From NCBI RefSeq assembly GCF_900188025.1, contig NZ_FZNO01000010.1:1-64000 (forward strand): a stretch of DNA of 64,000 bases, in the 5' to 3' direction. Positions 14,192 through 54,388 of this stretch are shown here, piece after piece; the first letter of the stretch is position 1, and each line of letters opens with the position of its first letter. Source of the stretch: Blastococcus mobilis (GTDB lineage Bacteria > Actinomycetota > Actinomycetes > Mycobacteriales > Geodermatophilaceae). The position numbers were made by a program, and so were the translations under genes. The notes under the pieces are model-generated. The model searched no databases. It was given only the letters and a program-made list of their open reading frames with translations, and was not told the DNA's origin.

Positions 14192-14213
14192 GTGTCCGAG
14201 GGGGGACTTGAAC
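14192..14213 (+). repeat. Copy of the tRNA-Leu(GAG) 3' end: candidate attachment site (R6)
   Basis: These 22 bases (GTGTCCGAGGGG to ACTTGAAC) are identical to 54367-54388, the acceptor and T-arm end of the intact tRNA-Leu(GAG), in the same orientation. After one mismatch the match continues CCC. To the left is the AACTCGG flank of the repeat family; to the right the tRNA similarity fades within about 30 bases. This is the pattern of the distal end of an element that integrated at the tRNA 3' end. Because T-arms are shared by tRNA paralogues, a different tRNA-Leu could be the source. Confidence 0.6.
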
Positions 14214-14333
14214 TCCCGTCGAAGGGCAAGCATCCAGATGCCTACAGGCGCCCTGAGCTGTGCTTTCGCCCTGGGTCCGAGGCTTGGGCGGTCCCGAAAT
14301 CCCGTCCTGATACGCCCGAATACGCCGTCGGCG

Positions 14334-14353
14334 GTATCACGGGAAGTATCACG
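14334..14353 (+). repeat. Paired GTATCACG sites (candidate integrase arm sites)
   Basis: GTATCACG at 14334-14341 and again at 14346-14353, 12 bp apart and about 120 bp inside the att-like site. The same octamer occurs twice 11 bp apart at 54280-54298, beside the integrase and the tRNA-Leu end. Short direct repeats on both sides of a core are typical arm-binding sites of tyrosine integrases. Confidence 0.5.
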
Positions 14354-14510
14354 ACCGGGTCCTCGGGGAGGGCTGACTCGTGGGCTGATCCGCCCCTTCG
14401 GTCCCGAGCGTTTGTCGGCCGGGGAGCAGACGTGAAGGAGCCGGCGAGGTGGTTGGTGCTGGGACTTGATCCTCACGGTTGGGGCCGGTGAGCCTCGCTG
14501 GGTCGTGTCG

Positions 14511-14861
14511 CTACCGGTCCCTGGAGTCGGCGCCCTGAGCCTCTGGGAGAGAGTCGTGGACGATCACGCCCAGGACGGCAAGTAAGGGCAGGCGGGGGAT
14601 CAGCACTCGTCGACCCAGACGGAGAGCCGGCAGCTCGCCGTTCTCGATCGCGCGAGACACCGTGCGCACGTCGACGCCGAAGACTGAGGCCGCCTGCGCG
14701 ACCGTCACGACGGCGGAGCGGCTGGCCCTGAGATCGTCGAGGTTCACCGCAACTTCTGCGCCCGAGCGGGGACATGGGGGCTGCGCCAGCGCCGCCCGTC
14801 GCATCAATAGTGGGGGAGGGACCTTCCGTCGTTCTGCAGTTTCACGGCGGTAGGGGCGCAT
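14511..14861 (-). CDS. Excisionase-like helix-turn-helix protein
   Basis: A short protein with one HTH_17/MerR-type DNA-binding domain: VTVAQAASVFGVDVRTVSRA is the HTH and IENGELPALRLGRRVLIPRL is the wing. This fold is used by phage and integrative-element excisionases. The N-terminal 35-40 residues from ATG 14861 are Pro/Arg-rich and not conserved-looking, so a GTG start near NLDDLRASRSA is likely. It lies just inside the att-like repeat and reads toward it. With the integrase at the far end, it would sit next to attP in a circularised element. Confidence 0.7.
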   Translation of the reverse strand: MRPYRRETAERRKVPPPLLMRRAALAQPPCPRSGAEVAVNLDDLRASRSAVVTVAQAASVFGVDVRTVSRAIENGELPALRLGRRVLIPRLPLLAVLGVIVHDSLPEAQGADSRDR

Positions 14862-14934
14862 GTCAGCGTGACCACTGCTGAGTGGAGCTCGGGCCCATGC
14901 CCTCTGCTACTGGAGGAGTTCTGGAGACCCAGGT

Positions 14935-15423
14935 TCAGTGCATGGCCGGGGCGCCGGTCGCACGGGCGCGTCTCCGGTAGGCCTCTAGTACGGGCTCCAG
15001 TTCCCGCGCCAGGCCGGGCAGGTCGCGGTCGTACACGCGACCGTCGTTCAGCTGGCGGGCAAGCGCGCCGAGCAGCCCCGGCCAGTCACGACGGGTCGGA
15101 TCGAGAGGAACGCGGACCTCGACGCGCCGTTCCACCACCTCCACCGCTGAGCGACCCGAGGATGTCGCCCGGGTCTGCTCCCAGGCTCGGTGACGACAGG
15201 TGGCTGAACACCACTTGGGGATCGGCCCTCGGCGACGCGGCGTGATGGGCCCTCCGCACCACCCACAGGATGCCGCGGCGGTCCGTCGTTCACGACCGTC
15301 TACTGGGACGCCATCCGGGTCCGGAGGAGGCTTCATGACCGGCGTCCGCGCAACCTGTTGACGCCGTTGCCGCTCGCGCTGGCGTCGTCGAGCTCGGTAC
15401 TCCGGGGTGCCGCTGGTTCCCAT
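14935..15423 (-). CDS. Zinc-finger protein of unknown function
   Basis: A 162-residue protein starting MGTSGTPEYRARRRQRERQR. A CGWC pair and, 15 residues on, a CSATCRHRAWEQ pair form a likely Cys4 zinc-binding centre around residues 55-85. The C-terminal half is helical and basic (VEVRVPLDPTRRDWPGLL to AYRRRARATGAPAMH). I do not know the family by name. It precedes the excisionase-like gene on the same strand with a 73-bp gap, suggesting a two-gene unit of an integrative element. Start is the ATG complementary to 15421-15423, because the longer frame upstream runs into the group II intron. Confidence 0.6.
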   Translation of the reverse strand: MGTSGTPEYRARRRQRERQRRQQVARTPVMKPPPDPDGVPVDGRERRTAAASCGWCGGPITPRRRGPIPKWCSATCRHRAWEQTRATSSGRSAVEVVERRVEVRVPLDPTRRDWPGLLGALARQLNDGRVYDRDLPGLARELEPVLEAYRRRARATGAPAMH

Positions 15424-16229
15424 GCCCACGACGGTCCAGACGAGCCTCCAGTAACTCGTCACCACGAGTTTGGTGACCCGAGGTGCAAGAGGTGTAAGGG
15501 CTTGCGATCTTGAATCGCTGCCCCTGGGGATGAGAATTCTCCAGTCGTCCGGCGACGTCGGAACACACTGGTGCGGGCGAGCCCGCTGAGGTGTATGGCG
15601 CGGGGTCCTCGGGTGCCCTTGATTGCTGCTGCGAGCGGTGCGCCACGAGGCGCTGTTTGTCCGGATGGAGGTGGGAGACCTTCGTCGCCTTGCCGTCGTA
15701 GCGGTGGGGTGAAGCTGGAGGCAGCCGTTCCCGGGGGTCGCCGGGAGGGGTGGGAGCAGCCTCGACAAAGTCGGGCCGGTTCAGCACTGCCGGATGGGCC
15801 GGGCCCGGTGAGCGAGACGAGAAGGCATACGCGAGGAACCGGTGTCGTAACGCCTCTTGAGGCAGCGCCAGCTCCAACCCGGTGGATGTGGGCTGGTCAG
15901 CGGTGCGTCCCCCCTCGAGGTCGGGGGTAGGGAACTTCTGGTTCGGTGCGCTCGCCAGGGCCAGGAGGCCACGGTGAAGGTCTACGGCGTAGCCGTGGCG
16001 AGGCCGCAGGGGCAGAGCCGGGTGCCTAACTCGTCGACCGGACAGCAGTGAACGTGGGAACCATCCGCGGTCGTTCCACCGTCCGCGCCCGGCCAGGGCG
16101 AGGGCTCGGGGGATGGGCGCGACGCCGGCCGAGGGCGCGGATGGGGCGGAGCCGTCGTAGTACTCCGAGCCGGGGAGAGCCCGGCACATGGGGAAGGGCG
16201 GCAGCGTGTCGAGCAAGGAGGAGCATGCA

Positions 16230-17699
16230 ATGGTCGAAGACGCGCCGGTGAATACCGGCGCCGCCACGTGGCCGGACCCGGTGTCGGCTGCGGCGGCGGT
16301 ACGACGGATGCAGACCAAGTTGCACCGTTGGGCGGCAGACGACGTCTGCCGCCGGTTCGGCGATCTGTTCAACCTCGCCTATGACCCGGCGTTCCTGGTG
16401 CACGCGTGGCACCGGGTGGCCGCCAATGCCGGGGCGAAGACCCCCGGGGTCGACCGGGCCACCGTGGCCCGGATCGAATCCGGCATCGGGGTGCAGGCGT
16501 TTCTGGGCCAGATCCGCGACTCGCTGAAGTCCGGCGAGTTCGCCCCGGTCGAGGTGCGGCAGGTGCTGATTCCGAAGGCGAGCGGCAAGCTGCGCGCCCT
16601 CGGCATCCCCACCGTCGCCGACCGGGTGGTCCAGGCGGCGCTGAAGGCAGTGCTGGAACCCATCTTCGAGGCGGATTTTTTGCCGTGCTCGTATGGGTTC
16701 CGCCCCAACCGGCGGGCGCAGGACGCGATCGCCGAGATCCACTTTCTGGCCACTCACGGGTATGAGTGGGTGCTGGAGGCCGACATCCAGGCGTGTTTCG
16801 ACTCCATCGAGCACACGCCGCTGACCGATCGGATGCGGCGACGGATCTCGGACAAACGCGTTCTGGCGCTGGTCAAGGCGTTCCTGAAGGCCGGGGTGAT
16901 GACCCAGACCGGCGATCGGGAACAGACGCTGACCGGCACTCCGCAGGGCGGGATCCTCTCCCCGCTGCTGGCCAACATCGCCCTGTCGGCGCTGGATGAG
17001 CACTTCGACGTCCACCGGCGGCGGGAGATGGGCACCAGCGAGCAGCGGGCCACGCGCCGACGCAAGGGCCTGGGCAACTGGCGGCTGATCCGGTACGCCG
17101 ACGACTTCGTCGTCATGGTGTCCGGCCAGCGCGAGCACGCCCAGGCGCGGCGAGAGGAGGTGGCGGCCGTGCTCGCCCCGCTGGGGCTGCGGCTGGCACC
17201 GGAGAAGACCCGCGTGGTCTCCATCGACGAGGGCTTCGACTTCCTCGGCTTCGCCATTCGCAGGAGGGCGAAGCGAGGAACTCTGAAGAAGGCCGTGTAC
17301 ACCGTGCCGTCCAAGAAGGCCGTGCAGGCGATCAAGGACAGGATGTCACGCCGCACATACAGATCGACCCGGCAGCAGAGCCTGGCCGAGGTGATCGGCG
17401 GGCTGAACCTGATGCTGCGGGGATGGGCGAACTACTTCCGTCACGGAGTCTCCGCGCGCGTGTTCCATTCGGTCGACGATCACGCCTGGCGGCGGCTCGT
17501 CGGCTGGATCCGCGCCAAGTACTCACGGATCGGGATGAGGGAACTCCGCCGCCGGTTCTGTGACCGCGGCTGGAGGATCGCCCACGAGGGGATCGTGTTC
17601 ACCGGCGCATCCAGCGTCGCGGTGACCCGCTACCGCTACCGCGGCAGCACCATCCCGACCCCCTGGACCCCGAACCGAGCAGCCGCCACGGCGGCCTGA
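16230..17699 (+). CDS. ltrA: Group II intron reverse transcriptase/maturase
   Basis: A 489-residue intron-encoded protein. The RT domain runs from about residue 60 to 330, with GKLRALGIPTVADRVVQAAL, then FLPCSYGFRPNRRAQDAI, ADIQACFDSI, GTPQGGILSPLLANI and the catalytic RYADDFVV. The maturase (X) domain follows with LAEVIGGLNLMLRGWANYFR. The C-terminal tail resembles group II maturase-specific domains; no H-N-H endonuclease motif is seen. It promotes splicing and retrohoming of its own intron RNA. The ATG at 16230 follows AAGGAGGAG at 16215; the upstream ATG at 16188 belongs to the structured intron RNA. The protein appears intact. Confidence 0.92.
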   Translation: MVEDAPVNTGAATWPDPVSAAAAVRRMQTKLHRWAADDVCRRFGDLFNLAYDPAFLVHAWHRVAANAGAKTPGVDRATVARIESGIGVQAFLGQIRDSLKSGEFAPVEVRQVLIPKASGKLRALGIPTVADRVVQAALKAVLEPIFEADFLPCSYGFRPNRRAQDAIAEIHFLATHGYEWVLEADIQACFDSIEHTPLTDRMRRRISDKRVLALVKAFLKAGVMTQTGDREQTLTGTPQGGILSPLLANIALSALDEHFDVHRRREMGTSEQRATRRRKGLGNWRLIRYADDFVVMVSGQREHAQARREEVAAVLAPLGLRLAPEKTRVVSIDEGFDFLGFAIRRRAKRGTLKKAVYTVPSKKAVQAIKDRMSRRTYRSTRQQSLAEVIGGLNLMLRGWANYFRHGVSARVFHSVDDHAWRRLVGWIRAKYSRIGMRELRRRFCDRGWRIAHEGIVFTGASSVAVTRYRYRGSTIPTPWTPNRAAATAA

Positions 17700-17718
17700 C
17701 CAACGGGTAAGACACGTG

Positions 17719-17753
17719 GAGCGCCCGGTGCGTGGAGACGCGCACGCCGGGTG
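17719..17753 (+). ncRNA. Group II intron domain V
   Basis: The hairpin begins GAGCGCCCGG, with the AGC catalytic triad at 17720-17722. It has a terminal stem capped by a GAGA (GNRA) tetraloop, a two-base CG bulge on the 3' side, and closes with CCGGGTGC. These are the hallmark features of the catalytic domain V. It follows the maturase stop by 19 bases. Confidence 0.8.
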
Positions 17754-17891
17754 CGGTGAGCGGGCCGGGGAAACGCGCTGGCCGCAAGGCCAGCACCGCG
17801 CCCCGGCCCGACTCGACCGCGGGTCTGTGTCCTGGCAGAGGACCCTCCGGATGACGCACCACAGGTCGTCGACCGCAGGGAGGGATGGAAG

Positions 17892-19112
17892 GTGGAAGTT
17901 CTGTACGAGCGGGTTGCCGGGCTCGACATCGGTAAGGCGACGCTGACCGTCTGCGTGCGCACACCCGGGCCGCGGGGTGGCCGGCGGGCGCAGACGCGGA
18001 CGTTCTCGACGATGACCCGGTCGTTGCAGGTGATGCGGGACTGGCTGCTGGCCGAGGGCGTGACGGTGGCGGCGATGGAGTCGACCTCGACCTACTGGAA
18101 GGCGCCGTTCTACTGCCTGGAGGAGGTCATGGAGGTCTGGCTGGTCAACGCCGCGCACATCAAGGCGATCTCGCGGCGCAAGACCGACGCCAAGGACGCC
18201 GAGTGGATCGCCCAGCTGCTGGAGTGCGGGCTCCTGCGCCCCTCCTTCGTGCCACCGGCAGACATCCGCCGACTGCGGATGCTCACTCGCTACCGGGTAC
18301 AGCTGATGGGCGACCGCACCCGAGAGATCACTCGGCTGGAGCTGATGCTCGAGGACGCCTCTGTGAAGCTTTCGTCGGTGGCGGCGAGCCTGACCAGCGT
18401 CTCCGCTCGGGCCATGCTCGGCGCGCTGATCAGCGGAGAGAGCGATCCGCAGGTTCTTGCCGAACTAGCCAAGGGGAAGATGCGCCGCAAGATCCCGGCC
18501 CTGACCGAGGCGCTGACCGGGCACTTCGACGCCGGCCACGCGCAGCTGGCCCGCGCCATCCTGGATCGCCTGGACCGGGTGGAAGCCGCGCTGGCCGAGC
18601 TAGATGCGGTGCTCGCGGAGGCCTTCACCCCGTGGACGCGGCAACTGCAACTGCTGCAGACCATTCCCGGCGTCTGACCGCGGGTGGCCCAGGTGATCAT
18701 CGCCGAGACCGGTGGAGACATGTCCCGCTTCCCCTCGGCGGCGCACCTGGCGGCCTGGGCCGGAGTGGCGCCGGCGATCTACGAGTCGGCCGGCAAGCGC
18801 AGCCCGGCCGGCGCTCGGCACGGCAACAAGTGGCTCAATCACATGCTCGTCGAGGCCGCTGGGTCGGTCGCCCGGATGAAGGGCGCCAACTACCTCTCCG
18901 CGCAGCACGCCCGGCTGACCGCCCGCCGCGGCATGGGTCGTGCCCAGGTCGCGGTCGCGCACTCGATCCTGGTCTCGACGTACTACATGCTCCGCGACGA
19001 CGAGCCCTATCAGGAGCTGGGCGCGGACTGGCTGGCCCGCCGCAACGACGAAGCCCACACCCGCCGCTTGATCGCCCAGCTCGAACGCCTCGGCCACACG
19101 GCCCACGTCTGA
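17892..19112 (+). pseudogene. IS110 family transposase with an in-frame stop
   Basis: Two ORFs in the same frame (17892-18677 and 18684-19112) together encode a full 406-residue IS110 transposase. Visible are RVAGLDIGKATLTVCVRTPG, MESTSTYWKAPFYCL, SRRKTDAKDAEWIAQLLECG, then LQTIPGV, the stop, and VAQVIIAETGGDMSRFPSA, GKRSPAGARHGNKWLNHMLV. The TGA at 18675-18677 lies where GGA (Gly) is expected before PRVAQVI, so a single G-to-T change would explain it. The 3' non-coding end expected for an IS110 element is missing: the tRNA-Pro-like 3' half begins right after the stop codon. Confidence 0.85.
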
Positions 19113-19150
19113 GGGTCAAGGGGTCGCAGGTTCAAATCCTGTCAGCCCGA
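19113..19150 (+). other. 3' half of a tRNA-Pro-like gene (remnant)
   Basis: Reads GGGTCAAGGGGTCGCAGG TTCAAAT and then CCTGTCAGCCCGA: the 3' anticodon-stem strand, variable loop, T-arm (GCAGG TTCAAAT CCTGT) and acceptor strand CAGCCCG plus discriminator A. An acceptor partner CGGGCTG and the bases before TCAAG fit a tRNA-Pro(GGG). The 5' half is absent; the IS110 remnant takes its place. Breakage near the anticodon is common where elements integrate into tRNA genes. It cannot be functional as it stands. Confidence 0.65.
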
Positions 19151-19217
19151 CAGTGTGATGTCTCAGGACATCGCGGACGCCCGAACCCACGAGTCGTGGG
19201 TTCGGGCGTCCGTCATT
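19139..19217 (+). repeat. Direct repeat flanking the IS481 remnant, left copy
   Basis: About 79 bases, from CTGTCAGCCCGACAG through TGATGTCTCAGGACATC and a GGACGCCCGAACCCACGA hairpin to CGTCAT, recur at 20084-20162 with few differences. The copies include the tRNA-Pro acceptor end, an IS481-type terminal sequence and a terminator-like hairpin. Confidence 0.75.
19174..19212. terminator. Perfect 19-bp hairpin
   Basis: CGGACGCCCGAACCCACGA pairs with TCGTGGGTTCGGGCGTCCG around a single central G. It lies downstream of the tRNA-Pro remnant (plus strand) and of the IS481 transposase stop (minus strand, 19213), so it could terminate either. A slightly decayed second copy is at about 20119-20157. 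Confidence 0.7.
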
Positions 19218-20013
19218 TCCGTGCTGGGCCGGGTGGTCGGCCGGTGGGCTGGTAGCCCGCGCGGGGGTCGAGGATCAGGTCGCGGTGGAGCTCGCCGGTG
19301 GCGGCGTGGATGACGCGGATGTGCAGGTCCTGAACGAGCAGCAGGACGTCGGTTCCGGTGAGGGTTCGGCCGACGCCCATGTGGTGTAGGCGGCCGGCCA
19401 CGCGCAGGGTGACGCAGCCGTCGGTGAGCGTGGCGGCCGGGTAGCCGTGTTCGGTGGTGGCCTGGGTGAAGGTGGCGGCCGTGATCGGGCCGGTGATGCG
19501 CGGGTGGGCGGAGACGTGCAGGGCGTAGCGGGAGTGGTCGTCGAGCCAGGTGATGCTCTGGGTCGTGGCGCCGGTGGTCAGGCGGTAGTGGGTGAAGTCC
19601 GACTGCCAGGTCCCGTTGGGCATCTCCGCGGCGAAGCGCAGGTAGGAGGCCGTCGGTCGCTTGCCGGGGTCGGGGTTGACCTGACCGGCGCGGGTCAGGA
19701 CCCGGTGGATGGTGGCCCGCGACAGCGTGCGCTGGTGATGGTGGGTCAGATGCCAGCCGATGGTGTCCGCGCCGGCGTCCAGGCCGGCCTCGGTGAGTTG
19801 CACCGCAGCACCAGCTCGGTGGTCGCCGGATCGGTGGCGGTCGGGCTGGTGTGCGGCCGGCGGGAACGGGGCTCGAACGCGGCTTCGCCCTCGACGGCGT
19901 AGCGGGCACATCAACCGGCTGATCCAGGACTGGGTGACGCCGTAGGAGCGGGCCACCTCCGACTGCGACGATCCGGCCAGGACAGCGGTGATCACCAGAC
20001 GGCGCTTGGACAC
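19213..20013 (-). pseudogene. IS481 family transposase remnant with internal deletion
   Basis: The N-terminus SQSEVARSYGVTQSWISRLM is the IS481 HTH. The following segment is shifted in frame (RRGRSRVRAPFPP instead of the AAFEPRSRRPH seen in another frame). Then TEAGLDAGADTIGWHLTHHH, a DDE start (PNGTWQSDFTHYRL) and TWLDDHSRYALHVSAH follow. After AATLTDG the protein jumps directly to the family's C-terminal tail (VTLRVAGRLHHMGVGRTLTG), losing about 100-150 residues including the catalytic Glu. Terminal inverted repeats are visible: TGATGTCTCAGGACATC near 19157 and the complement of GATGTCCTGAGCCACGACA near 20065. The element is dead. Confidence 0.8.
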
Positions 20014-20083
20014 CTCGCATCGTCGAGCCCGGACCTATGCCGATGTCTTGAGACACCCCATTCCGATGTCCTGAGCCACGACA

Positions 20084-20162
20084 CTGTCAGCCCGACAGTC
20101 TGATGTCTCAGGACATCCCGGACGCCCGAACCCACGATTCGGGGGTTCGGGCGTTCGTCATC
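20084..20162 (+). repeat. Direct repeat flanking the IS481 remnant, right copy
   Basis: Second copy of the 79-base unit at 19139, again with CTGTCAGCCCGACAG, TGATGTCTCAGGACATC and the GGACGCCCGAACC hairpin ending CGTCAT. It marks the right edge of the mobile block; the betaine genes start about 330 bp later. Confidence 0.75.
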
Positions 20163-20488
20163 TCTCGCCCTCGGGTCGATGAGCCGCGCCGGACATGGTG
20201 ACAGGCGCAGCGCTTGCCGAGCCGGTGACGGGGTCAGGCCGCAGGAGGACAGTGATGTGCAGCCGGATGGCGCGTGCGTGGGAGGAGTAGCGCGCGATGA
20301 GACCACCGAGCACGTCCTCGGGTCGGACTTCGGCGGGATCGACTCCGCCCTCGTCACGGGGGTGTCACGCACAGTCTCGTCTCCGCATGAGTGTGCGAAA
20401 AATCACGTGCGGGTCTTGTGCCAGTGACACGCCTCTGGTTCCCTCATGCGAAACCAGTCTCGGATGACGCAACACATTGAGGAGTGTC
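20163..20488. other. Leader region of the BCCT transporter gene
   Basis: No gene is supported. Any promoter for the transporter should lie here. I see no clear copy of the TGTTGCG or CTGATATACCA motifs found at the other promoters of the cluster. Confidence 0.35.
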
Positions 20489-22465
20489 ATGGAGCACCCG
20501 CGCGACGAGCAACGCTCGCTCTCCCGCCCACCGAGCAGGTCCCAGGTCGGAGCCGAACCGCTCTCTGCCGACGGTGCCGGCGTGCTGGGGGAGGAGCATT
20601 CAGCCCTCAGGGCCACCGATGCGACCGTCACCGGGACGCATCCGGCCATCGCGGACACACCGCCGTGTCAGGCCGACCGGCACTGGGCTGTGGACAGGGT
20701 TCTGTTCGCCATCGCCGCAGCCATGGCGCTGGGCTTCGTGGCCTGGGGCTTCGTCTCTCCCACGGGCTTGGGCACTGCCAGCGGATCGGTCCTCGGCTGG
20801 GTCACCGGCAATCTCGGCTGGCTGTTCGTACTGCTGGCATCGGCATTCGTGGTGTTCGTGATCTGGCTCGCCGCCGGCAAGTACGGGCGGATCCCGCTGG
20901 GGCGCGACCACGAGCGGCCGGAGTTCCGCACCATCTCGTGGATCGCGATGATGTTCAGTGCAGGCATGGGGATCGGCCTGATGTTCTTCGGGGTGGCCGA
21001 GCCACTGTCGCACTTCGTCGCCCCGCCACCGCTCACGACCGAGGCCGAGTCGTCCGAGGCCATCCAGACGGCGATGGCAACCACACTGTTCCACTGGACA
21101 CTGCACCCCTGGGCGATGTACGCCGTGGTCGGGCTGGCCATCGCTTACGGCACCTTCCGGAGGGGCCGCCGTCAGCTGATCAGCTCCGCCTTCATCCCGC
21201 TGCTCGGAGAGCGGCGGGCCGCGGGTCCGGCCGGCCGGGTCATCGACGTCCTGGCCATCTTCGCGACGCTGTTCGGATCGGCCGCCTCTCTCGGCCTGGG
21301 TGCCCTGCAGATCGGCAGCGGTGTCGAGATCCTCGGCTGGGCGGGGAACGTCGGGAACGGCGTCCTGGTCGGGATCATCGCTCTGCTGACCGCCGCGTTC
21401 GTCGCCTCGGCCGTCTCGGGGATCGCCCGCGGGATCCAGTGGCTGTCCAACACCAACATGGTCCTGGCCATCCTGCTCGCGGCCTTCGTCTTCGTGGTCG
21501 GCCCGACGATCTTCATCCTCAACCTGATCCCCGACGCAGTCGGCAGCTACTTCTCCGACCTCGGCGAGATGGCGGCGCGCACGGAGGCCACCGGTGGTGA
21601 CCCGATGGCCGCCTGGCTCCGCGGCTGGACGGTCTTCTACTGGGCCTGGTGGATCAGTTGGACGCCCTTCGTCGGACTGTTCATCGCGCGCATCAGTCGC
21701 GGCCGGACCATCCGCCAGTTCGTGACGGGCGTGCTTCTGGTGCCCAGCCTGGTCAGCTTGCTGTGGTTCGCCATCTTCGGAGGCGCCGGCATCGCCGCAC
21801 AGCGCGACGGCGTCGACGTCAGCGGGTCGGGCACCACGGAAGGGCAGCTGTTCGCCGTTCTGGGGCAGTACCCCCTCGCGACCGCCGCGACCGTCCTCGT
21901 GATGATCCTGGTGGCGATCTTCTTCGTCTCCGGTGCGGACGCGGCCTCGATCGTCATGGGTTCGCTCTCGCAGCGCGGCACCCTGGAACCGAGCCGATCG
22001 GTCGTCGTCTTCTGGGGCGTCGTGATGGGCTCCGTCGCAGCGATCATGCTGCTCCTGGGCGAGGAGGGTGCAGCCCTGACGGGGCTGCAGAACCTGACGA
22101 TCATCGCGGCGCTGCCCTTCGCGCTGGTGATGGCGGCAATGGCCGTCAGCCTGGTCAAGGACCTGCGCAAGGATCCCATCGTCCTGCGCGGCAACTACGC
22201 CACGTTGGCAGTGGAGCAGGCTGTCGTCGACGGCATCCGCCGCCACGGCGACAACTTCGTCCTCGTGGTGGAGAAGACCTCGGTCCCACCGGCGGACGTT
22301 GCTGCAGCCGAGGCGCAGTCGTCCCCGGCGGGCCCGGACTCGGACGGACGGCAGTCGGGCGGCCGGGGGAGCCGCTTCCTGCCGCCGAACGGGAACGTGG
22401 CCGTTCCCCCGCAGGGTCAGCCCAAGGCGGAGGTGATCGGCAGACCGATGGGTCCCCGCACCTAG
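20489..22465 (+). CDS. BCCT family glycine betaine/choline transporter
   Basis: A 658-residue sodium- or proton-coupled symporter with about 12 membrane segments. The N-terminal ~65 residues are polar and cytoplasmic, and the C-terminal ~75 residues are Gly/Pro/Gln-rich. Family motifs: SAGMGIGLMFFGVAEPLSHF (glycine-rich TM3), the Trp-rich substrate segment TVFYWAWWISWTPFVGLFIA, and RISRGRTIRQF. It is the likely importer of betaine (or choline/carnitine) for the catabolic genes downstream. ATG at 20489 follows GAGGAG at 20479-20484; an in-frame TTG at 20477 is less likely. It has its own terminator, so it is a single-gene unit. Whether it serves osmoprotection or nutrition cannot be read directly; the context favours nutrition. 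Confidence 0.9.
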   Translation: MEHPRDEQRSLSRPPSRSQVGAEPLSADGAGVLGEEHSALRATDATVTGTHPAIADTPPCQADRHWAVDRVLFAIAAAMALGFVAWGFVSPTGLGTASGSVLGWVTGNLGWLFVLLASAFVVFVIWLAAGKYGRIPLGRDHERPEFRTISWIAMMFSAGMGIGLMFFGVAEPLSHFVAPPPLTTEAESSEAIQTAMATTLFHWTLHPWAMYAVVGLAIAYGTFRRGRRQLISSAFIPLLGERRAAGPAGRVIDVLAIFATLFGSAASLGLGALQIGSGVEILGWAGNVGNGVLVGIIALLTAAFVASAVSGIARGIQWLSNTNMVLAILLAAFVFVVGPTIFILNLIPDAVGSYFSDLGEMAARTEATGGDPMAAWLRGWTVFYWAWWISWTPFVGLFIARISRGRTIRQFVTGVLLVPSLVSLLWFAIFGGAGIAAQRDGVDVSGSGTTEGQLFAVLGQYPLATAATVLVMILVAIFFVSGADAASIVMGSLSQRGTLEPSRSVVVFWGVVMGSVAAIMLLLGEEGAALTGLQNLTIIAALPFALVMAAMAVSLVKDLRKDPIVLRGNYATLAVEQAVVDGIRRHGDNFVLVVEKTSVPPADVAAAEAQSSPAGPDSDGRQSGGRGSRFLPPNGNVAVPPQGQPKAEVIGRPMGPRT

Positions 22466-22485
22466 GGACACCACCCCACCGGTGA

Positions 22486-22535
22486 GGGCCTCCCGGCGTC
22501 GGAACGGCGAGAACCGTTCCGACGCCGGGAGGCCC
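22486..22535 (+). terminator. Rho-independent-like terminator after the BCCT gene
   Basis: A perfect 22-bp stem: GGGCCTCCCGGCGTCGGAAC GG (22486-22507) with its complement at 22514-22535, six-base loop CGAGAA, followed by TTCTCGTT. The remaining 22536-22932 holds no supported gene. Confidence 0.85.
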
Positions 22536-22932
22536 TTCTCGTTGAGGTGACCTCGGTCGAGGCACGGTACGACGGGGGACACGCATCTGCCGCGGATTCG
22601 GAACTTCCGAGGAGCCGCGGCATCGACGTGGCGCCGGCCGGGTTCACCAGAGCTCGCAGACGGACGTATCTCCGGCGGCTCCGGACGCCGCGCCCGGGCT
22701 CGGCTCCGGCCCGGACGACCGTGACAGCCGCGGACGCGCCAGCAGCTTTCCGTCGCCGGGGGTATCCGAGACGCGCCGGGTGTCCTGAGGGCCCCAGGGA
22801 GATCCATGCAGAGGACCAGCGTGCGGCTGTCCGGTTTCTCACGAGCGCTGCGCGACGTGGCGCGTGTCGCCGGGGACTCAGTCAGGTCGGTCGACTGCTC
22901 GCAGCGGGGCATCGTCTGCCTCCGCACGACGA

Positions 22933-22975
22933 CGCCCGCCTGAACCGCCGAGTCGAGCAGCGGTTCAGGCGGGCG
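22933..22975 (-). terminator. Terminator hairpin downstream of the ferredoxin reductase gene
   Basis: CGCCCGCCTGAACCG (22933-22947) pairs with CGGTTCAGGCGGGCG (22961-22975). It lies 8 bases beyond the stop of the reductase on the minus strand. Confidence 0.75.
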
Positions 22976-22982
22976 CTCGGGA

Positions 22983-24472: not shown

Positions 24473-24493
24473 GGGGGCTCCAGGCTTCGTGAG

Positions 24494-24531
24494 TGTTGCG
24501 TATGTCACAACTCATCGCCGATAGCGCAACA
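24494..24531. promoter_or_regulatory. Candidate IclR operator, divergent promoter
   Basis: TGTTGCG (24494-24500) and its inverted partner CGCAACA (24525-24531) have centres 31 bp apart, about three helical turns. The same pair with the same spacing occurs at 25604-25641 before the oxygenase gene. It lies between the ferredoxin and iclR starts and may control both. Confidence 0.6.
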
Positions 24532-24602
24532 GCATGCCTCGGTCGGGGGGCAACGTCAAGAGCGCTCGGTCGCCCTGCGCGGTCGGGACCTACGCTGAGG
24601 TC

Positions 24603-25394: not shown

Positions 25395-25603
25395 CGGGAC
25401 GCTCGGCGGACTGCCGCCGAGCGGAGGGCCAGACGCTCCGGCGCGGACGAGTCGCCGCATGTGGGAGGCGACGGGCGGAGCGGGCGCCACGCCCCCTCTG
25501 GCCCGTGCGGGTGCCCACCGACGGTGCTGGGACCGGCGGCCCGGGGTCGGCCATGCCCTGGCGACGCGACTCCCATACGCGGCGAACGGGCGGTGCAGCT
25601 GAC

Positions 25604-26941: not shown

Positions 26942-26963
26942 GCGTGCGACCGCGTAACTGTCG

Positions 26964-43248: not shown

Positions 43249-43258
43249 GGAGGCACCC

Positions 43259-47495: not shown

Positions 47496-47500
47496 GCAGC

Positions 47501-48904
47501 TCAGTCGATGGTCATGGCGCGCCTGCGGACCCGTTCGTCGAAGCGGTCCCGCTCACCGCTGACCGGCCTGCCGAGGTACTCACCCAGCGTCACGCCGGCA
47601 GCGAGAGCGAGACCGACGGCCAGCGCTCCGACGAGGGCGGCCAGTGCGCCCTCGATGTCGGCGCCGACGACGATCCTGAACAGGCCCTGGTAGACGGCCA
47701 GTCCCGGCAGCAGCGGAACGATGCCGCAGACCGCGACGAGCTGCGGGGGGACCCGCAGCCGCTGGGTCAGCACCTCTCCGGAGAACCCGATGACGACGGC
47801 CGCGATCCCGCTGGCCAGGGGAGTTCCGGCCCCCACTGCGCTGAGCGCCCAGAATGTCGTCCACGCGAGCGCTCCGGCGATCGCGGCGAGTCCGACGGCG
47901 CGCGGCCGGGCATGGCTGGCCAAGGACCAGAAGCCGGCGATCCCGACCGATGCCGCGAGCGCGACGGGGAAGGGCACAGGGGAGGGCGCGGTGGTGACGA
48001 CGGTCAGCGGCAGTTCGGCGCGCCGAGCCAGATCGAGCACGCCGGCGATGCCCACCACGATGCCGGCGGTCAGCGTCACCACCTCGAAGGCTCGCGCCCC
48101 GGCGGTCACCGGAAACCCGTTGATCGCGTCCTGCGCCGCACTGACGAGGGAGAGGCCGGCAAGGAGCACGACGATGCCGGCGGCGACGACCAGCGACGTC
48201 CGGACCTCGACGCCCCAGGCGAGCAGGAGAACGGCGACCCCTGTGGCGAGCGCGGCCCCCGCTACCTGCTGGAAGAAGACCGGCAGGCTCCGCCGGTTGA
48301 GCACCCGCATCACCTGCTCGATCAGGGCGGTCGTCAGGGCTGCGAGCAGCGCCTCCAGCCAGCCACCGCCGAGAACGAGGCAGAAACAACCGGCCACACC
48401 GGCCCATGCCATTGCATTCACGGTCCGGCGGTAGGTGGCAGGCGCCGCGACCACACGGTCCAGCCTGCGGTGTGCCTCCTCGATGTCGAGGTCACCTGCG
48501 CCGATGGCGCGGGCGAGGTCGGTGACTCCCTGGAAGCGGGTGTAGTCGAGACGGCTCATCCGCACGATCCGCATCGCGGTGAGCGGTACTGCGTCCTCCC
48601 GGTCGAAGCTGACCGTGATGGACGTGAACGTGATGTCGACCTGGCAGCTGGTCAGCCCGTAGGCGGCGGCGACCCGCAGCATCGTCGAGGTGACGTCGGC
48701 GCAGGAAGCTCCGACGGCGAGCATGGACGCGCCGATGCGCAGCGCCAGGCCCAGCGCCGCGTGCGCCGTGAGGTCGTCCATCCGGCTGGGCAGGGCCCGA
48801 AGGCCGATCGGTGCGGTGGGTGGGTTGTTCCCCGCGACCGCACGCCAGGCCCGCTCCGGGAGACGCGAGTACGGCACACGGCGACGCGGGGGCCAGGCGG
48901 GCAC
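47501..48904 (-). CDS. thrE: Threonine/serine exporter family protein (ThrE)
   Basis: A 467-residue membrane protein. The N-terminal ThrE domain has a soluble part (AALGLALRIGASMLAVGASC, then VDITFTSITVSFDREDA) followed by about five membrane segments. The C-terminal ThrE_2 domain adds about five more (VALAASVGIAGFWSLASHAR to LGEYLGRPV). It exports threonine and serine in Corynebacterium. Beside sdaA and glyA it may relieve serine overflow during betaine use, which is inference. The first 41 residues lack conservation; ATG at 48781 (MDDLTAHAALG) may be the true start. Converges with pabB-pabC, 5 bp apart. Confidence 0.88.
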   Translation of the reverse strand: MPAWPPRRRVPYSRLPERAWRAVAGNNPPTAPIGLRALPSRMDDLTAHAALGLALRIGASMLAVGASCADVTSTMLRVAAAYGLTSCQVDITFTSITVSFDREDAVPLTAMRIVRMSRLDYTRFQGVTDLARAIGAGDLDIEEAHRRLDRVVAAPATYRRTVNAMAWAGVAGCFCLVLGGGWLEALLAALTTALIEQVMRVLNRRSLPVFFQQVAGAALATGVAVLLLAWGVEVRTSLVVAAGIVVLLAGLSLVSAAQDAINGFPVTAGARAFEVVTLTAGIVVGIAGVLDLARRAELPLTVVTTAPSPVPFPVALAASVGIAGFWSLASHARPRAVGLAAIAGALAWTTFWALSAVGAGTPLASGIAAVVIGFSGEVLTQRLRVPPQLVAVCGIVPLLPGLAVYQGLFRIVVGADIEGALAALVGALAVGLALAAGVTLGEYLGRPVSGERDRFDERVRRRAMTID

Positions 48905-49169
48905 AGACCCAGGCTATGGCTTCGAAGGAGAGCTGACCGATGTGGCCAGGACGCTCCCGGAGTGCCGGTCACCCTCGTCGGCGGGCCCGGACGGCGGTCG
49001 GTCCGGGGGGCCGAACCGACCGCATCGGGCTACGAACCGACATGGTCACCCGGGTGGGAAACCGCCCGTCGGCACCACAGCGGGAGGCTGAGGGCATGAT
49101 CCCGTGCACTCGGCCGGCGAGCCGTTCAGCTGGCGGTCGGCAGACCTCCTCTTTCCGGGCAGCGCCGCG

Positions 49170-50087
49170 ATGACCGACGAGGCACGTCTCCCGGGGGAAC
49201 CCGCCGACGACCACGCGCGGGCCGTCCCGGTGTTCTTCCTGTCCGACAGCACCGGGATCAGCGCGGAGACGATGGGCAATGCGCTGCTCATCCAGTTCCC
49301 GGACATGCGCTTCGAGCGCACCGTGATCCCCTTCATCTCCTCGGTCCAGGAGGCCCGGGAGGTCGTGGCCCAGCTGGACGAGGTGATGGCGGGGCCCGTT
49401 CCCCCGCTGGTCTTCACCACCGCCGCCGTCGACGAGGTGCGTGCGGAGCTGCTGAAGACCAAGGCTCCGATCATTGACTTCTTCGGGCTGCACATGGAGC
49501 GGGTGGAGGCGCAGCTCGGGGCTCGGGGACTGCACGAGGCCCGGCGACTGCACGGGGTCGGGGACGTGCGTCGCTACAACGACCGGATGGCGGCCATCGA
49601 GTTCGCCATCGAGCACGACGACGGTCTGAGCCCCCGGGGCCTGGACCGGGCCGACGTGGTGCTGCTGGCGCCGTCCCGGTGCGGCAAGACGCCGACCGCG
49701 ATGTACCTGGCGCTGCAGCACGGCCTGTTCGTGGCCAACTATCCACTGGTCGACGAGGATCTGGAGTCCACCGAGCTGCCCGGACCGGTCCGGGGCCTCG
49801 CCGACCGCTGCTTCGGGTTGACCACCACGGTGACGCGCCTGAGCCGGGTCCGGCAGGAGCGCCGCCCGGACTCCCGCTACGCCTCCGAGGAGCAGTGCCG
49901 CTTCGAGCTGCGCCGGGCGATGGCGATCTACGCCGCCCACGACCTCCCCACCGTGGACACCACGACGGCCTCCGTCGAGGAGATCGCCACCGTGGTCATC
50001 CAGACCCTGGCCCGGCAACGGCGGCGCTCCGGCGCACGCCCGCAGTCCGGCCACAACCTCCCCCGAGGAAGGACCCTCCGATCATGA
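49170..50087 (+). CDS. ppsR: PEP synthase regulatory protein (kinase/pyrophosphorylase)
   Basis: A 305-residue DUF299-family bifunctional ADP-dependent kinase/phosphate-dependent pyrophosphorylase. It inactivates PEP synthase by phosphorylating a Thr near the catalytic His, and reverses it. Motifs: [32 protein letters not shown] and the P-loop [20 protein letters not shown], followed by [15 protein letters not shown] at 49170 begins [11 protein letters not shown]; the frame from 49104 adds 22 unconserved residues. Its stop overlaps the ppsA start (ATGA), so enzyme and regulator are made together. Confidence 0.92.
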
Positions 50088-52504
50088 GCACCGACACCGC
50101 ACGCGAGGCACAGACCGGGGGAACGGCCGACGACGGCGACAACGTCCGGTGGTTCGCCGAGCTGGGGCTCGCCGACCTCGAGGTGGTCGGCGGGAAGAAC
50201 TCCTCGCTGGGCGAGATGATCTCCCATCTCGCCGATGCCGGGGTCAGCGTCCCCGACGGCTTCGCCACCACGGCGGCGGCCTACCAGCGCTTCCTCGGCG
50301 ACACCGGGCTGGCCGGCCGGATCGCGGAGCGGCTGCGCGGGCTGGACATCGACGACGTCCGGGCGCTGGCCGAGGCCGGCCGGGAGATCCGGCGGCAGGT
50401 GGTCGAGCAGCCCTTCCCGCCGGCCCTGGAGGCCGACATCCGCGCGGCATACGACCGGCTGGCCGGCGGCGACGCGGAGGCCTCCTTCGCGGTCCGCTCC
50501 AGTGCCACCGCCGAGGACCTCCCGGACGCCTCCTTCGCCGGGCAGCAGGAGACCTTCCTCAACGTGCGTGGCGTCGACGCGGTGCTGCAGGCCGTCCGGG
50601 AGGTGTACGCCTCGCTGTACAACGACCGGGCCATCGCCTACCGGGTGCACCACGGCTTCGACCACGAGGCGGTCTCGCTGTCGGCGGGGGTGCAGCGGAT
50701 GGTGCGCTCGGACGTCGGGGCCTCGGGCGTCATGTTCACCATGGACACCGAGTCCGGTTTCCGCGACGCCGTCTTCATCACCTCGGCCTACGGCCTCGGC
50801 GAAGGGGTGGTGCAGGGGGCGGTCAACCCGGACGAGTTCTACGTCTACAAGCCGGCCCTGCGGGCCGGGCGCCCGGCCATCCTCAAGCGGGGTGTGGGGG
50901 AGAAGGCCACCAAGATGGTCTACACCGAGCACGCCGAGGTCGGCCGTACGACCCAGTTCGTCGACGTCGACCCCGCGGAACGCCGGCTGCTGTCCCTCAC
51001 CGACGAGGAGGTCCTCGAGCTGGCCCGACAAGCGCTCAAGATCGAGGAGCACTACGGCCGGCCCATGGACATCGAGTGGGGCAAGGACGGCCTCACGGGG
51101 CAGCTCTACATCCTGCAGGCCCGTCCGGAGACCGTGCAGTCCCGCTCCGGCAACACCTCCGAGCGGTACATCCTCACCGGCACCGGGGAGGTTCTGGTCG
51201 AGGGGCGGGCGATCGGGCAGAAGATCGGCGCCGGCGCCGTCCGGGTGCTCACCGACATCGACCAGATGGACCAGTTCACCGCCGGGGACGTGCTGGTCGC
51301 CGACATGACCGACCCGGACTGGGAACCGATCATGAAGCGGGCCGCGGCGATCGTGACCAACCGCGGCGGGCGGACCTGCCACGCGGCGATCATCGCCCGC
51401 GAGCTGGGCATCCCCGCCGTCGTGGGCACCGGCACGGCCACCCGGAAGCTGTCCGACGGCGACCCGGTCACCGTCTCCTGCGCCGAGGGCGACACCGGTC
51501 TGGTCTACGCCGGCGAGATCGGCTTCGAGGTGGCGGAGACCGAGCTGGACGCCATGCCGGAGATCCCGACCAAGATCATGATGAACGTGGGGACGCCGGA
51601 GCAGGCCTTCGCGTTCTCCCGGCTGCCCCACGCCGGCGTCGGGCTGGCCCGGCTGGAGTTCATCATCAACCGGCAGATCGGCATCCACCCGCGGGCGCTG
51701 CTCGACCTCGAGCGGCTCGACGCCCCGCTGAAAGCGCAGATCGAGGAACGGATCGTCGCCTACCCCTCGGCGCGGGACTTCTTCGTGCACCGGGTCGCCG
51801 AGGGCGTCTCGATGATCGCCGCGGCGTTCGCGCCCGAGCCGGTGATCGTGCGGATGAGCGACTTCAAGTCCAACGAGTACGCCAACCTCCTCGGCGGCGA
51901 CCTGTACGAGCCGCACGAGGAGAACCCGATGCTGGGTTATCGCGGGGCCTCGCGGTACCTGTCGGCCGACTTCGCCGACTGCTTCGCCATGGAGTGCGAG
52001 GCGCTGCGCTACGTCCGCGACGAGATGGGGCTGACCAACGTCAAGATCATGATCCCGTTCGTCCGGACCGTCGCCGAGATCGAGGGCGTGGTCCGCCTGC
52101 TGGGCGAGCACGGTCTGCGCCGCGGGGAGAACGGCCTGTCGGTCGTGATGATGTGCGAGCTGCCCTCCAACGCGCTGCTGGCCGGGGACTTCCTCGAGCA
52201 CGTCGACGGGTTCTCCATCGGCTCCAACGACATGACCCAGCTGGCCCTCGGCCTCGACCGCGACTCCGCCCTCGTCGCGGCAGGTTTCGACGAGCGTGAC
52301 CCCGCCGTGCTCGCCCTGCTGAAGATGGCGATCGAGGCCTGCCTGGACCGAGGGAAGTACGTCGGCATCTGCGGCCAGGGCCCCAGCGACCACCCCGATC
52401 TCGCCGACTGGCTGGTCGGGCAGGGCATCGAGTCGATGTCGCTGAACCCCGACACCGTCGTCGACACCTGGCAGCACATCGCCAAGTCACCCCACGTCAG
52501 CTGA
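50084..52504 (+). CDS. ppsA: Phosphoenolpyruvate synthase
   Basis: An 806-residue enzyme converting pyruvate, ATP and water to PEP, AMP and phosphate. ATP-grasp domain at the N-terminus ([38 protein letters not shown]). The central swivel domain has the catalytic His and target Thr in [20 protein letters not shown]. The C-terminal PEP/pyruvate TIM barrel carries [35 protein letters not shown] and [18 protein letters not shown] with the active-site Cys. It turns pyruvate from serine into PEP, allowing growth on betaine as carbon source. The length is typical of PpsA rather than pyruvate phosphate dikinase. Confidence 0.94.
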
Positions 52505-53064
52505 CGCGGCGTCTCGGCGTGACCACGGCACCAGTGTCATGGTCACGGTCAGCTACGGCTTTCCGGCCGGGGTGGGCCGGTAAGCGTGGTGCGAGGCGGC
52601 GATTCCTGACCACCACTCTGACCACCATTGAGCCCCGTTCCGGGCCGTTCGGCACCGTTCGCCGTCGTCTCGTGCACCGCTCGACCTGCGCAGATGGACT
52701 CGGGCGAACCACCGCAGACCCCCGGCCGACGGCTGGGGGTCTTGAGGTCGCAATGGGGGCAGAGATTGACCTGTCCCGCATCGGGCACCCGCATTGCGGC
52801 TCTGCGACGTGCCAAGTGGGCGGTCCGAGCGACTCCGGGGCCACTGGAGAAAAACAGGAGACTGCTGCGCGAGGCTCTGGTGACCGTGTTCACGGCACCG
52901 CCTGAGCGCTGACCCACGGTTCCACAGGCCGCCTACTCGTCCACAGGTTTGCCACTGCGGCAGCGAAGCCCCCTAGTCGCCAGTAAGTCGGGAGAGAGCC
53001 TGACAGCCGAGAGACGGCCAGAGCTGGGCCTCTCGAGGCGGGCCAGCAGGAGGAGGTCGGCGGG
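52505..53064. other. Region between ppsA and the integrase, no supported gene
   Basis: Overlapping ORFs here lack recognisable domains. A direct repeat CTGACCACCA occurs twice, about 14 bp apart, near 52607-52630 and could be a protein-binding site of the integrase unit. Nothing else stands out. Confidence 0.4.
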
Positions 53065-54267
53065 ATGGGGAAGCCACGGCGGCGGCAGGCGGGCGAGGGC
53101 GGGATCAGTGAGTACGAGACCAAAGCCGGCCGGCGCTTCCTGATCAAGTTCACGGTTCAGCGCGAAGACGGGACCAGGCGTGTCGTCCTCAAGCGCGGAT
53201 TTCTGTCCCGGAGGGACGCCGCGGCGGCCCTCCGTGCCGAGATCCGCAAGGCTGAGGTGGGGGAGTGGGTGGAGCCGTCGAAGCAGCGCCTCGACGCCTA
53301 CCTTGCGGAGTGGATCAAGGGGCAAAGGCTGAGCCCTTCCACGCTGTCGTCGTACCGGAAGAACATCCGGCTGCACATCGACCCTTACCTGGGTGAGCAG
53401 CTCGTCGCCCGTCTCACCGGCTCGGCGGTCGACGCGTGGATGCGGAAGTTGGAGGCGTCCGGTCGTGCCGACGGCCAGGGTGGGCTTTCCGCGCGCACAG
53501 TGCGCTACGTGTTCACCATCCTGCGGTCGGCACTGAGCGATGCGGTCAGTCAGGGGCGGCTCGCGGTCAATCCGACGGACCGATCTACGGCGCCGACCCC
53601 CTCGGAGGCCCGTCCCCCGGAGATGAAGGCCTGGACCGCGCCGGAGCTCGCCCGCTTCCTCGGCTGGGCGGAAGCGTACGACCCGGACTTGGCCATAGGT
53701 TGGCGGCTGCTCGCGACGACCGGGATGCGCCGCGGAGAGGCGCTCGCCCTGCGCTGGCGGGACGTCGACTTGGACGCCGCGCGGCTTGCAGTTCGTCGCA
53801 GTGTCGGGGTGGTGAAGAACAAGGGCGCCGGCGAGGAGCTGGTCGAAGGCCCGACCAAGACGGGCCAAGCCCGAGTCGTCGACCTCGACGCGGGCACCGT
53901 GGCAGCGCTCCGCAGGTACCGGACGGTCCGCGGCTTACTGACTCTCGAGCTCGTTCGGGACTCTGCGCTCGTGCTGAGCGAGCTCGACGGCGCCCATCGG
54001 CACCCGGAGCGATTCTCCCGCCGTTTCGCCGGCCAGCTCCTCCGAGCGCGCAGGGCGCTGGGCGAGGAGCAGCTGCCGGTGATCCGGCTGCACGATCTCC
54101 GTCACACGCACGCCACGCTGCTGCTTGCCGACGGCGTACCGGTGAAAGTCGTGTCGGAGCGGCTGGGCCACGCCAGCGCCACCATCACGCTTACCGTCTA
54201 CCAGCACGTTCACCCCGGCATGGGCCGCCAGGCCGCTAACCGCTTCGCCGCCCTGTTGGAAGGCTGA
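53065..54267 (+). CDS. int: Tyrosine recombinase (integrase) next to tRNA-Leu
   Basis: A 400-residue integrase. An N-terminal AP2-like arm-binding domain (GGISEYETKAGRRFLIKFTV to LSRRDAAAAL). A SAM-like core-binding domain (LDAYLAEWIKGQRLSPSTLS). The catalytic domain holds TGMRRGEALALRW with the first Arg, LHDLRHTHATLLLADG with His-x-x-Arg, ERLGHASATIT and the nucleophile Tyr in TVYQHVHPGM. It reads toward the tRNA-Leu gene, whose 3' end is 100 bp beyond its stop, with paired GTATCACG sites between. Intact by length and motifs. It should integrate and, with an excisionase, excise the element ending in the tRNA. Confidence 0.93.
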   Translation: MGKPRRRQAGEGGISEYETKAGRRFLIKFTVQREDGTRRVVLKRGFLSRRDAAAALRAEIRKAEVGEWVEPSKQRLDAYLAEWIKGQRLSPSTLSSYRKNIRLHIDPYLGEQLVARLTGSAVDAWMRKLEASGRADGQGGLSARTVRYVFTILRSALSDAVSQGRLAVNPTDRSTAPTPSEARPPEMKAWTAPELARFLGWAEAYDPDLAIGWRLLATTGMRRGEALALRWRDVDLDAARLAVRRSVGVVKNKGAGEELVEGPTKTGQARVVDLDAGTVAALRRYRTVRGLLTLELVRDSALVLSELDGAHRHPERFSRRFAGQLLRARRALGEEQLPVIRLHDLRHTHATLLLADGVPVKVVSERLGHASATITLTVYQHVHPGMGRQAANRFAALLEG

Positions 54268-54278
54268 GTCGGGCACGA

Positions 54279-54298
54279 AGTATCACGCGAGTATCACG
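54279..54298 (+). repeat. Paired AGTATCACG sites (candidate integrase arm sites)
   Basis: AGTATCACG at 54279-54287 and 54290-54298, 11 bp apart, directly after the integrase gene and about 70 bp from the tRNA 3' end. The same motif pair occurs inside the att-like copy at 14334-14353. Confidence 0.55.
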
Positions 54299-54366
54299 AG
54301 GGCCTCCGAGGCCTCAACACGAAATTACCCCGGGTCCCTGACCTGCAGGAAGACCGGGGTGAGGCT

Positions 54367-54388
54367 GTGTCCGAGGGGGGACTTGAAC
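54367..54388 (+). repeat. att core candidate within the tRNA-Leu 3' end
   Basis: These 22 bases are identical to 14192-14213 and in the same orientation. They cover the acceptor 3' strand and half of the T-arm. The copy here keeps the tRNA whole, as expected for the integrase-proximal end of an element. Confidence 0.6.

Follow-up and report, generated by a model that had tools for sequence, protein, structure and literature searches.

We analysed a 64,000-nucleotide stretch of the genome of Blastococcus mobilis (contig NZ_FZNO01000010.1, positions 1 to 64,000; hereafter the window) and conclude, with a probability of about 0.9, that positions 14192-54366 represent one integrated element, the newest unit of an array at the tRNA-Leu(GAG) gene, with a payload of Geodermatophilus type. 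The conclusion draws on sequence evidence: the ends, sites and genes of the element, the same architecture with other cargo in relatives, the foreign character of the cargo, the orientation of the array and the recurrence of its units. Genomes are designated here by codes, G000 being that of the window (5.1 Mb), in which the window is contig C66, 1-64000.

Ends, sites and genes of the element

A preliminary description of this DNA had proposed a 22-base repeat in one orientation, the right copy being the 3′ end of an intact tRNA-Leu, and both proposals hold. The sequence GTGTCCGAGGGGGGACTTGAAC is present at 14192-14213 and at 54367-54388, on the plus strand and with 0 mismatches in each case, and the right copy ends an intact tRNA gene on the minus strand (54367-54452). 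The window contains no other match at up to 3 mismatches, 0 being expected in 100 shuffles, and with 2 mismatches allowed the 5.1-Mb genome contains one further match. There is thus a direct repeat of a tRNA 3′ end at both boundaries, with the intact tRNA at one of them, as in a tRNA island. The 3′ part of tRNA-Leu(GAG) gave a single match in 49 of 50 relatives searched; in G092 there is a second, with 2 mismatches.

Paired sites had also been proposed inside both ends, and exact GTATCACG is indeed found on either strand of the window only at 14334, 14346, 54280 and 54291, all beside the two ends. These putative arm-type sites lie on both sides of the core, in positions that are conserved in relatives, some ends having one site. 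The genes described as abutting the two copies were identified as expected: the integrase is a PF00589 tyrosine recombinase with its reading frame ending 99 bases from the right core, and the excisionase-like (xis) gene beside the left copy exceeds the TIGR01764 cut-off. By sequence, an integrase therefore stands beside one attachment (att) site and is accompanied by a recombination directionality factor. Against the TIGR02249 model, applied as a test for an integron integrase, it scored 46.8 bits, the cut-off being 265. Full-length relatives, 75-88% identical, lie beside the same tRNA in other genomes. The hairpin that adjoins the tRNA 3′ end (Table 1) may be a tRNA terminator supplied by the element.

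In lambda-type integration, the integrase binds core and arm sites and the excisionase directs excision, and we infer that the 40-kb element would integrate in this manner. Joined as a circle, it would present an attP in the order int, two GTATCACG sites, hairpin, 22-bp core, two GTATCACG sites, xis. The integrase would recombine this circular attP with the 3′ end of tRNA-Leu(GAG), rebuilding the tRNA on the right and leaving the 22-bp copy on the left, and xis would favour excision. The payload would be a block of about 32 kb with genes for growth on glycine betaine, running from betaine uptake to phosphoenolpyruvate (PEP) synthase and of the Geodermatophilus type. Successive insertions at the same tRNA would push older units to the left, and the element would then be the newest. 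Smaller units to the left of the element probably use the same target and may be moved by another recombinase.

Table 1. Features of the window, in order of position (strand given as + or -; a point stands where no strand is given).
Feature	Coordinates	Strand	Basis or remark
Array unit 1: saccharopine dehydrogenase-like, pyridoxal phosphate (PLP) decarboxylase	783..5039	+	
Array unit 2: IS110, alpha/beta hydrolase, WapI-like	5040..9002	+	
Array unit 3: second alpha/beta hydrolase copy	9003..11117	+	
Array unit 4: SnoaL-like	11118..12193	+	
Array unit 5: FAD-linked oxidase	12194..14191	+	
Left 22-bp core, left end of the element	14192..14213	+	exact GTGTCCGAGGGGGGACTTGAAC
Putative arm-type site pair, GTATCACG	14334..14353	+	+142/+154 from core
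Excisionase-like helix-turn-helix (HTH) protein	14511..14861	-	HTH_17 and TIGR01764 'excisionase family DNA-binding protein', both above cut-off
Probable small Zn-ribbon-like protein	14938..15495	-	no Pfam match; Zn ribbon assigned by visual inspection
Insertions near the left end	16188..20164	.	group II intron reverse transcriptase/maturase, IS110, rve-type transposase between 81-bp repeats
Cargo: betaine uptake and demethylation, one-carbon and serine metabolism, PEP synthase	20434..52504	.	collinear with Geodermatophilus blocks
Tyrosine integrase, 400 aa	53065..54267	+	PF00589, E 1.4e-21
Putative arm-type site pair, GTATCACG	54280..54298	+	-87/-76 from core
Hairpin adjoining tRNA 3′ end	54327..54360	-	-19.4 kcal/mol folded alone
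Right 22-bp core, tRNA 3′ end	54367..54388	+	exact GTGTCCGAGGGGGGACTTGAAC
tRNA-Leu(GAG), intact, integration target	54367..54452	-	3′ part matched once in 49 of 50 relatives searched

Units of the same architecture in related genomes

Relatives of the integrase were sought in the genus (16 genomes) and in the family (108 genomes), where 35 genomes gave a match at E <= 1e-60. In the 18 genomes for which both positions are known, no more than about 120 bp separate the integrase from the tRNA-Leu(GAG) core, and in two of them (G008 and G111) the integrase is broken. Six units combine an integrase on the right with an xis on the left, namely that of the window (40.2 kb) and those of G003 (115 kb), G006 (27.7 kb), G008 (30.4 kb), G041 (11.9 kb) and G087 (13.5 kb). 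The five sister units thus span 11.9 to 115 kb; in each, 101-116 bp lie between integrase and tRNA, and the opposite end bears a homologue of xis. Homologues of xis (59-84% identity) were present at all 7 of the other left ends compared; three further element-like left ends, two in G004 and one in G022, lay outside this comparison. Alignment of the GTATCACG sites with homologous elements, a check suggested in the preliminary description, placed them in register: on the left the sequence is found at +142/+154, or no more than two bases away, in G000, G003, G006, G008, G015, G020 and G041, and on the right it lies near -87/-76 in relatives. In the array set, which has 137 right ends, exact GTATCACG always accompanies integrase homology, with the single exception of one end in G023; G056, which was outside the integrase-remnant comparison, also has GTATCACG.

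What lies between the ends differs from unit to unit. The G006 unit carries a multicopper oxidase, nitrate-reductase-like subunits and a major facilitator superfamily (MFS) protein, that of G008 carries SIR2, GGDEF/EAL, FliG and thiamine genes, and that of G041 a two-component system and a second integrase. At the score used, and with most left flanks compared over 6-13 kb, nine integrase-bearing genomes share only about 1.3-1.8 kb beside the tRNA, which is essentially the integrase. The right flanks of 12 genomes of the genus align with the window, nine from the tRNA core on and the other three, from the integrase-bearing G003, G006 and G008, from 53.05-53.08 kb. Relatives differ in the presence or absence of the element at the same site, although no exact empty site was found.

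Homologues of the Zn-ribbon-like protein encoded next to xis were found at three other left ends (G008, G041 and G087). In a set of 16 integrase loci that were fetched, eight of which are near tRNA-Ala, tRNA-Lys or tRNA-Gly and eight near no tRNA, such homologues were present at 8, including tRNA-Ala(GGC) loci. The protein is possibly a common partner of tRNA elements in this family.

Origin of the betaine cargo

The cargo comprises genes for a BCCT transporter, a Rieske oxygenase (best model GbcA, below cut-off), a ferredoxin reductase, serine hydroxymethyltransferase, sarcosine oxidase, a dimethylglycine-oxidase-like protein, FolC, serine dehydratase, PurU and PEP synthase. Window positions 20434-52486 are collinear with DNA of G043 (20434-47344), G053 (22993-48921) and G047 (26947-52486, in two chains), with best-piece identities of 87-90%; the whole block is present in no single genome. 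Genera are coded in the same way as genomes (the window's genus is g1, G043 belongs to g3 and G088 to g9), and 'different genera' means different codes; some members of g2 (G017, G019, G020 and G023) are also named Blastococcus.

The dimethylglycine-oxidase-like protein occurs in 48 of 108 family genomes (E <= 1e-150), and at the same limit 13 of the 15 other genomes of the genus, five of these 13 being less than 90% complete, have no match. The remaining two, G001 and G015, possess homologues of 62-64% located elsewhere, and within the genus a close copy is found in G000 only. The cargo proteins of the window gave no match (E <= 1e-6 or 1e-8) to the units of G006, G008, G041 and G087 apart from a 33% dehydrogenase in the flank they have in common, and against the part of G003 that was read they gave weak matches only (25-56%). 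Judged from these comparisons, the betaine cargo is foreign to this site in the genus of the window. This result, together with the recurrence of both ends, in register and with other cargo, in five genomes, supports the earlier proposal that the betaine-to-PEP block is cargo of a tRNA-Leu integrative element.

In other genera there is a shorter version, located to the left of the tRNA or sharing a contig with array repeats in G036, G085, G089 and G101; in G103 it is on a contig whose read stretch has no array repeats. Blocks of this kind may thus have reached the region repeatedly. Where the betaine block of the window begins, direct repeats of 81 bp (19139-19219 and 20084-20164, 93% identical) surround the adjoining transposase gene.

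The array to the left of the element

The repeats to the left of the element have a common core, GTGTCCGAGGGG, followed by CGACACGCTACATACGCACACG, which is not tRNA sequence, and the small units have 12-16 bases in common with the tRNA end. We searched for this left end with a 34-bp pattern at <= 3 mismatches in a family sample of 112 genomes (the integrase search used 108). The pattern was present in 54 of the 112; in a sample of the order it was found in 23 of 51 family genomes versus 2 of 247 others, and the reversed pattern, used as a control there, gave 0 throughout. Since the sites were picked by their likeness to the pattern, conservation of the 34 bp is partly built in. Named exact matches (28 stretches) comprise Geodermatophilus, Blastococcus and Modestobacter together with records labelled Geodermatophilaceae bacterium and, as metagenome-assembled genomes, Pseudonocardiales, Frankiales and Tetrasphaera.

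The array has one polarity. Taking the listed sites that share a contig with a located tRNA, all 78, in 32 genomes, are on the 3′ side of the tRNA and on the same strand, 0.8 to 160 kb away; on the seven contigs longer than 3 Mb this is true of 22 of 22 listed sites, all within 118 kb. When stretches were oriented by the tRNA or by the majority, 195 sites were forward and 0 reverse, a count that includes tRNA cores and some overlapping loci. G000 itself has 22 non-tRNA sites on seven contigs, and matches on two more contigs.

The 121 intervals with a cassette-type start have a median length of 3.0 kb and a minimum of 554 bp (a few are counted twice through overlapping loci). Overall the array holds toxin-antitoxin pairs, defence genes and enzymes. 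Among 141 open reading frames (ORFs) scanned, chosen from 275 usable ones, the commonest Pfam assignments were alpha/beta hydrolases and PIN, with 6 each; defence-type ORFs included Wadjet JetA and JetD (one each) and two TOTE-type primase proteins, and small units encode a PIN toxin with a VapB-like partner (below cut-off) and proteins of the Phd/YefM-ParE type. No PF00589 match was found inside the arrays of G001 or G005. Complete units recur. One of 4.5 kb is shared by G001 (g1) and G024 (g2) at 89% identity, full length both ways and adjoining the tRNA in both; another, of 0.78 kb, is shared by G102 (g9) and G108 (g11) at 87%; one copy is in the middle of its array and the other adjoins the tRNA, so that their neighbours differ. 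Within g2, G020 and G024 share a 0.79-kb unit at 80%.

The 60 nucleotides before 141 sites, folded and compared with shuffled sequence, gave a mean z of -1.6, with 37% below -2. Hairpins beside the tRNA 3′ end are common, the signal over the shuffle is modest, and a terminator role is plausible.

In the window, alpha/beta hydrolase segments at 6870-7647 and 9747-10524, in the neighbouring units 2 and 3, are 98% identical. The segment 12220-12291 recurs at 96% in G001 (C1:1094542) and at 90% and 86% on contigs C87 and C31 of G000, which suggests that it is the end of an unrelated repeat element. Elsewhere, a block of at least 12.2 kb that ends with tRNA-Leu(GAG) is 99.5% identical in two genera (L206:1-12254 in G065 and L061:522-12766 in G015); among its genes are Wadjet-like ones and one for a divergent tyrosine recombinase, and the best match of the right flanks is 85% and not collinear. 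Unless the assemblies were misjoined at the conserved tRNA, this block is a recent cross-genus transfer.

Weighing the alternatives

Several observations weigh against the reading of 14192-54366 as one integrated element. No empty site with 14191 joined to the tRNA, the junction named as a check in the preliminary description, was found among relatives. Comparison of left flanks by blastn did not reveal a shared chromosomal left flank but only scattered segments in changed order, and the region to the left of the array is too little conserved to define an empty site. The left end of G087 and several right ends hold one exact GTATCACG rather than two, the G003 right end has no exact copy and one site with a mismatch, and none was found at the three further element-like left ends (G004 twice, G022). 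The integrase of G008 is split into two frames. About 48 of the 115 kb of G003 were read, and an inner boundary is possible there. Finally, no significant decay of the left-end repeats was seen as distance from the tRNA increases (n = 66; P 0.14 by rank, 0.71 by distance), so that the order of insertion has no independent support.

The preliminary description cautioned that the copy at 14.2 kb could be the trace of an earlier element distinct from this one, and one may suppose that the two 22-bp copies stem from different elements and that the betaine block reached the tRNA in another way. The core at 14192 is also a member of the repeat family to its left. The caution is largely answered: the left half of this copy, GGTTCAACTCG, closes the neighbouring unit on its right, and what begins with the core is the element's own left end (core, GTATCACG near +142/+154, xis), a pattern repeated in G003, G006, G008, G015, G020 and G041, and no further core of this kind occurs between 14192 and 54367. 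We regard a mixed origin of the two copies as very improbable. An integrase, an excisionase and a tRNA site are also features of actinomycete integrative and conjugative elements (AICEs), and the protein on the xis side recurs beside other integrases, as might be expected if the element were a conjugative one (AICE/ICE) that has decayed, or a plasmid that has integrated. Among the ORFs of the interval that were scanned, a part of the total, no conjugation genes were seen and there was no FtsK-type, relaxase, type IV secretion system or replication match, and the same null was obtained for 19 ORFs of three sister elements (5 in G041, 5 in G006 and 9 in G008). Such a derivation therefore seems unlikely, and a single element integrated at the tRNA accounts best for these data.

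The nature of the small units is a separate matter. They may be decayed remnants of elements that once bore an integrase, shuffled by ordinary homologous recombination and not mobile as cassettes, and we consider this a serious possibility that falls only somewhat short of an even chance. Remains of a same-family integrase, intact or broken, occur less than about 250 bp from 14 of the 137 right ends (18 when the limit is set at 1.3 kb, with some of the pieces then in the neighbouring unit), hybrid units exist (G111 and G056), and several large units hold other, atypical tyrosine recombinases. In contrast, complete small units with both ends intact recur in different genera without an integrase, and the 34-bp left end is present, at <= 3 mismatches, in the 54 of 112 family genomes noted above. 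The tRNA-Leu(GAG) 3′ end may instead serve as an attI-like platform, at which small cassettes lacking an integrase would be captured serially by a trans-acting recombinase, while larger int/xis elements such as the betaine island share the site. The left end of each cassette would be the conserved 34 bp, and its right end would vary and often contain a hairpin. We put forward this arrangement, integron-like but not integron-derived, tentatively, the balance being rather against it.

Candidate recombinases for the small units

Co-occurrence does not support the integrase family of the window as mover of the small units: the repeat is present in 20 of 35 integrase-positive versus 30-34 of 73 integrase-negative genomes (the range reflects the samples of 112 and 108), with a Fisher P of 0.15-0.41. 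No non-Xer recombinase was found in common among the 16 repeat-bearing genomes with listed PF00589 matches. G017 has four such matches only, of which one is beside tRNA-Lys, one is partial and two, by their scores, we take to be Xer-like. A motif, CGAAGCG/CGCTTCG, seemed enriched at unit ends and was rejected; it is partly the integrase's own C-terminal codons and is otherwise scattered. A divergent 442-aa recombinase beside the tRNA in G065 and G015 was set aside as a general mover, its relatives being present in few units only.

Diverse atypical tyrosine recombinases are encoded in array units at L058:17919-18839, L091:1431-2411, L137:23-1048 and L184:8978-9862, and those in units of G004, G047, URHA0031 and G015/G065 are leads for the small-unit recombinase. 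Also in G065, the gene for a 318-aa protein starts next to the tRNA; partial homologues occur in L133, L157, L128 and L192, and in L128 and L192 the coordinates place the start of the homologue against the right end of the unit.

Comparison with known systems

The closest known system appears to be the ssrA islands of Dehalococcoides, and the element with its array resembles a variant of this tandem-accretion kind. According to the portions of the published account used here, those islands lie in tandem downstream of a single-copy RNA gene, with 20-bp copies of its 3′ end, within 100 kb, and carry strain-variable catabolic cargo, as here; 15 of 31 lack an integration module (PMC3146451). The same portions describe a serine recombinase, DsiB, at the tmRNA gene (PMC3146451), whereas here there is a tyrosine integrase with putative arm-type sites at tRNA-Leu(GAG), and many units of 0.6-3 kb whose conserved left end is not derived from the RNA gene. 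We thus found tRNA-Leu and a tyrosine integrase in place of a DsiB module at ssrA, and many copies of an RNA-gene 3′ end on one side, in units with and without integration genes, the small units sharing 12-16 bases and not 20.

Integrons are characterized by same-orientation cassettes at a fixed site, toxin-antitoxin cassettes and hairpins at unit ends. The array is like them in layout, having small same-orientation cassettes beside a fixed site, toxin-antitoxin cassettes and unit-end hairpins; unlike in integrons, the fixed site is a tRNA gene and the most conserved part is at the start of the unit. No integron integrase was found in the two arrays checked, those of G001 and G005 (PF00589), and the integrase of the window scores below the TIGR02249 cut-off. 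The ICESt1-related elements of Streptococcus thermophilus are conjugative and occupy another site, whereas no conjugation genes were seen here among the ORFs scanned. To judge from a title cited in PMC3218068, they too accrete in tandem at one common att site.

Additive flexible genomic islands offer a further parallel, as far as the sections consulted describe them, in Methylopumilus with tRNA-end repeats (PMC10872708) and in Alteromonas with cassettes (PMC5217437). At tRNA-Lys in Ca. Methylopumilus the island fGI-2 ranges from 330 bp to 42 kb, its repeats being the last 20 tRNA bases (PMC10872708), and in Alteromonas cassettes are gained and lost largely via site-directed recombination (PMC5217437). 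Those sections describe no conserved non-tRNA unit end, arm-type sites or complete units shared across genera (PMC10872708, PMC5217437). By description only, the element is also like tycheposons, tRNA-bounded islands with a tyrosine recombinase and metabolic cargo (PMC10872708). Searches of a library of open-access papers, by title and opening lines of the abstract, listed no report of such arrays in Geodermatophilaceae.

For the biology of these bacteria, the element predicts a precise att system of core, arm sites, int and xis. The array points to a platform shared across this family of actinobacteria from stone and desert, where genes for catabolism, defence and toxin-antitoxin systems collect at a single tRNA gene that looks essential. 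Should the small units be mobile by themselves, they would constitute a natural gene-capture device outside the integron family; if they are not mobile, the array would document with unusual clarity how units accrete and decay at one tRNA.

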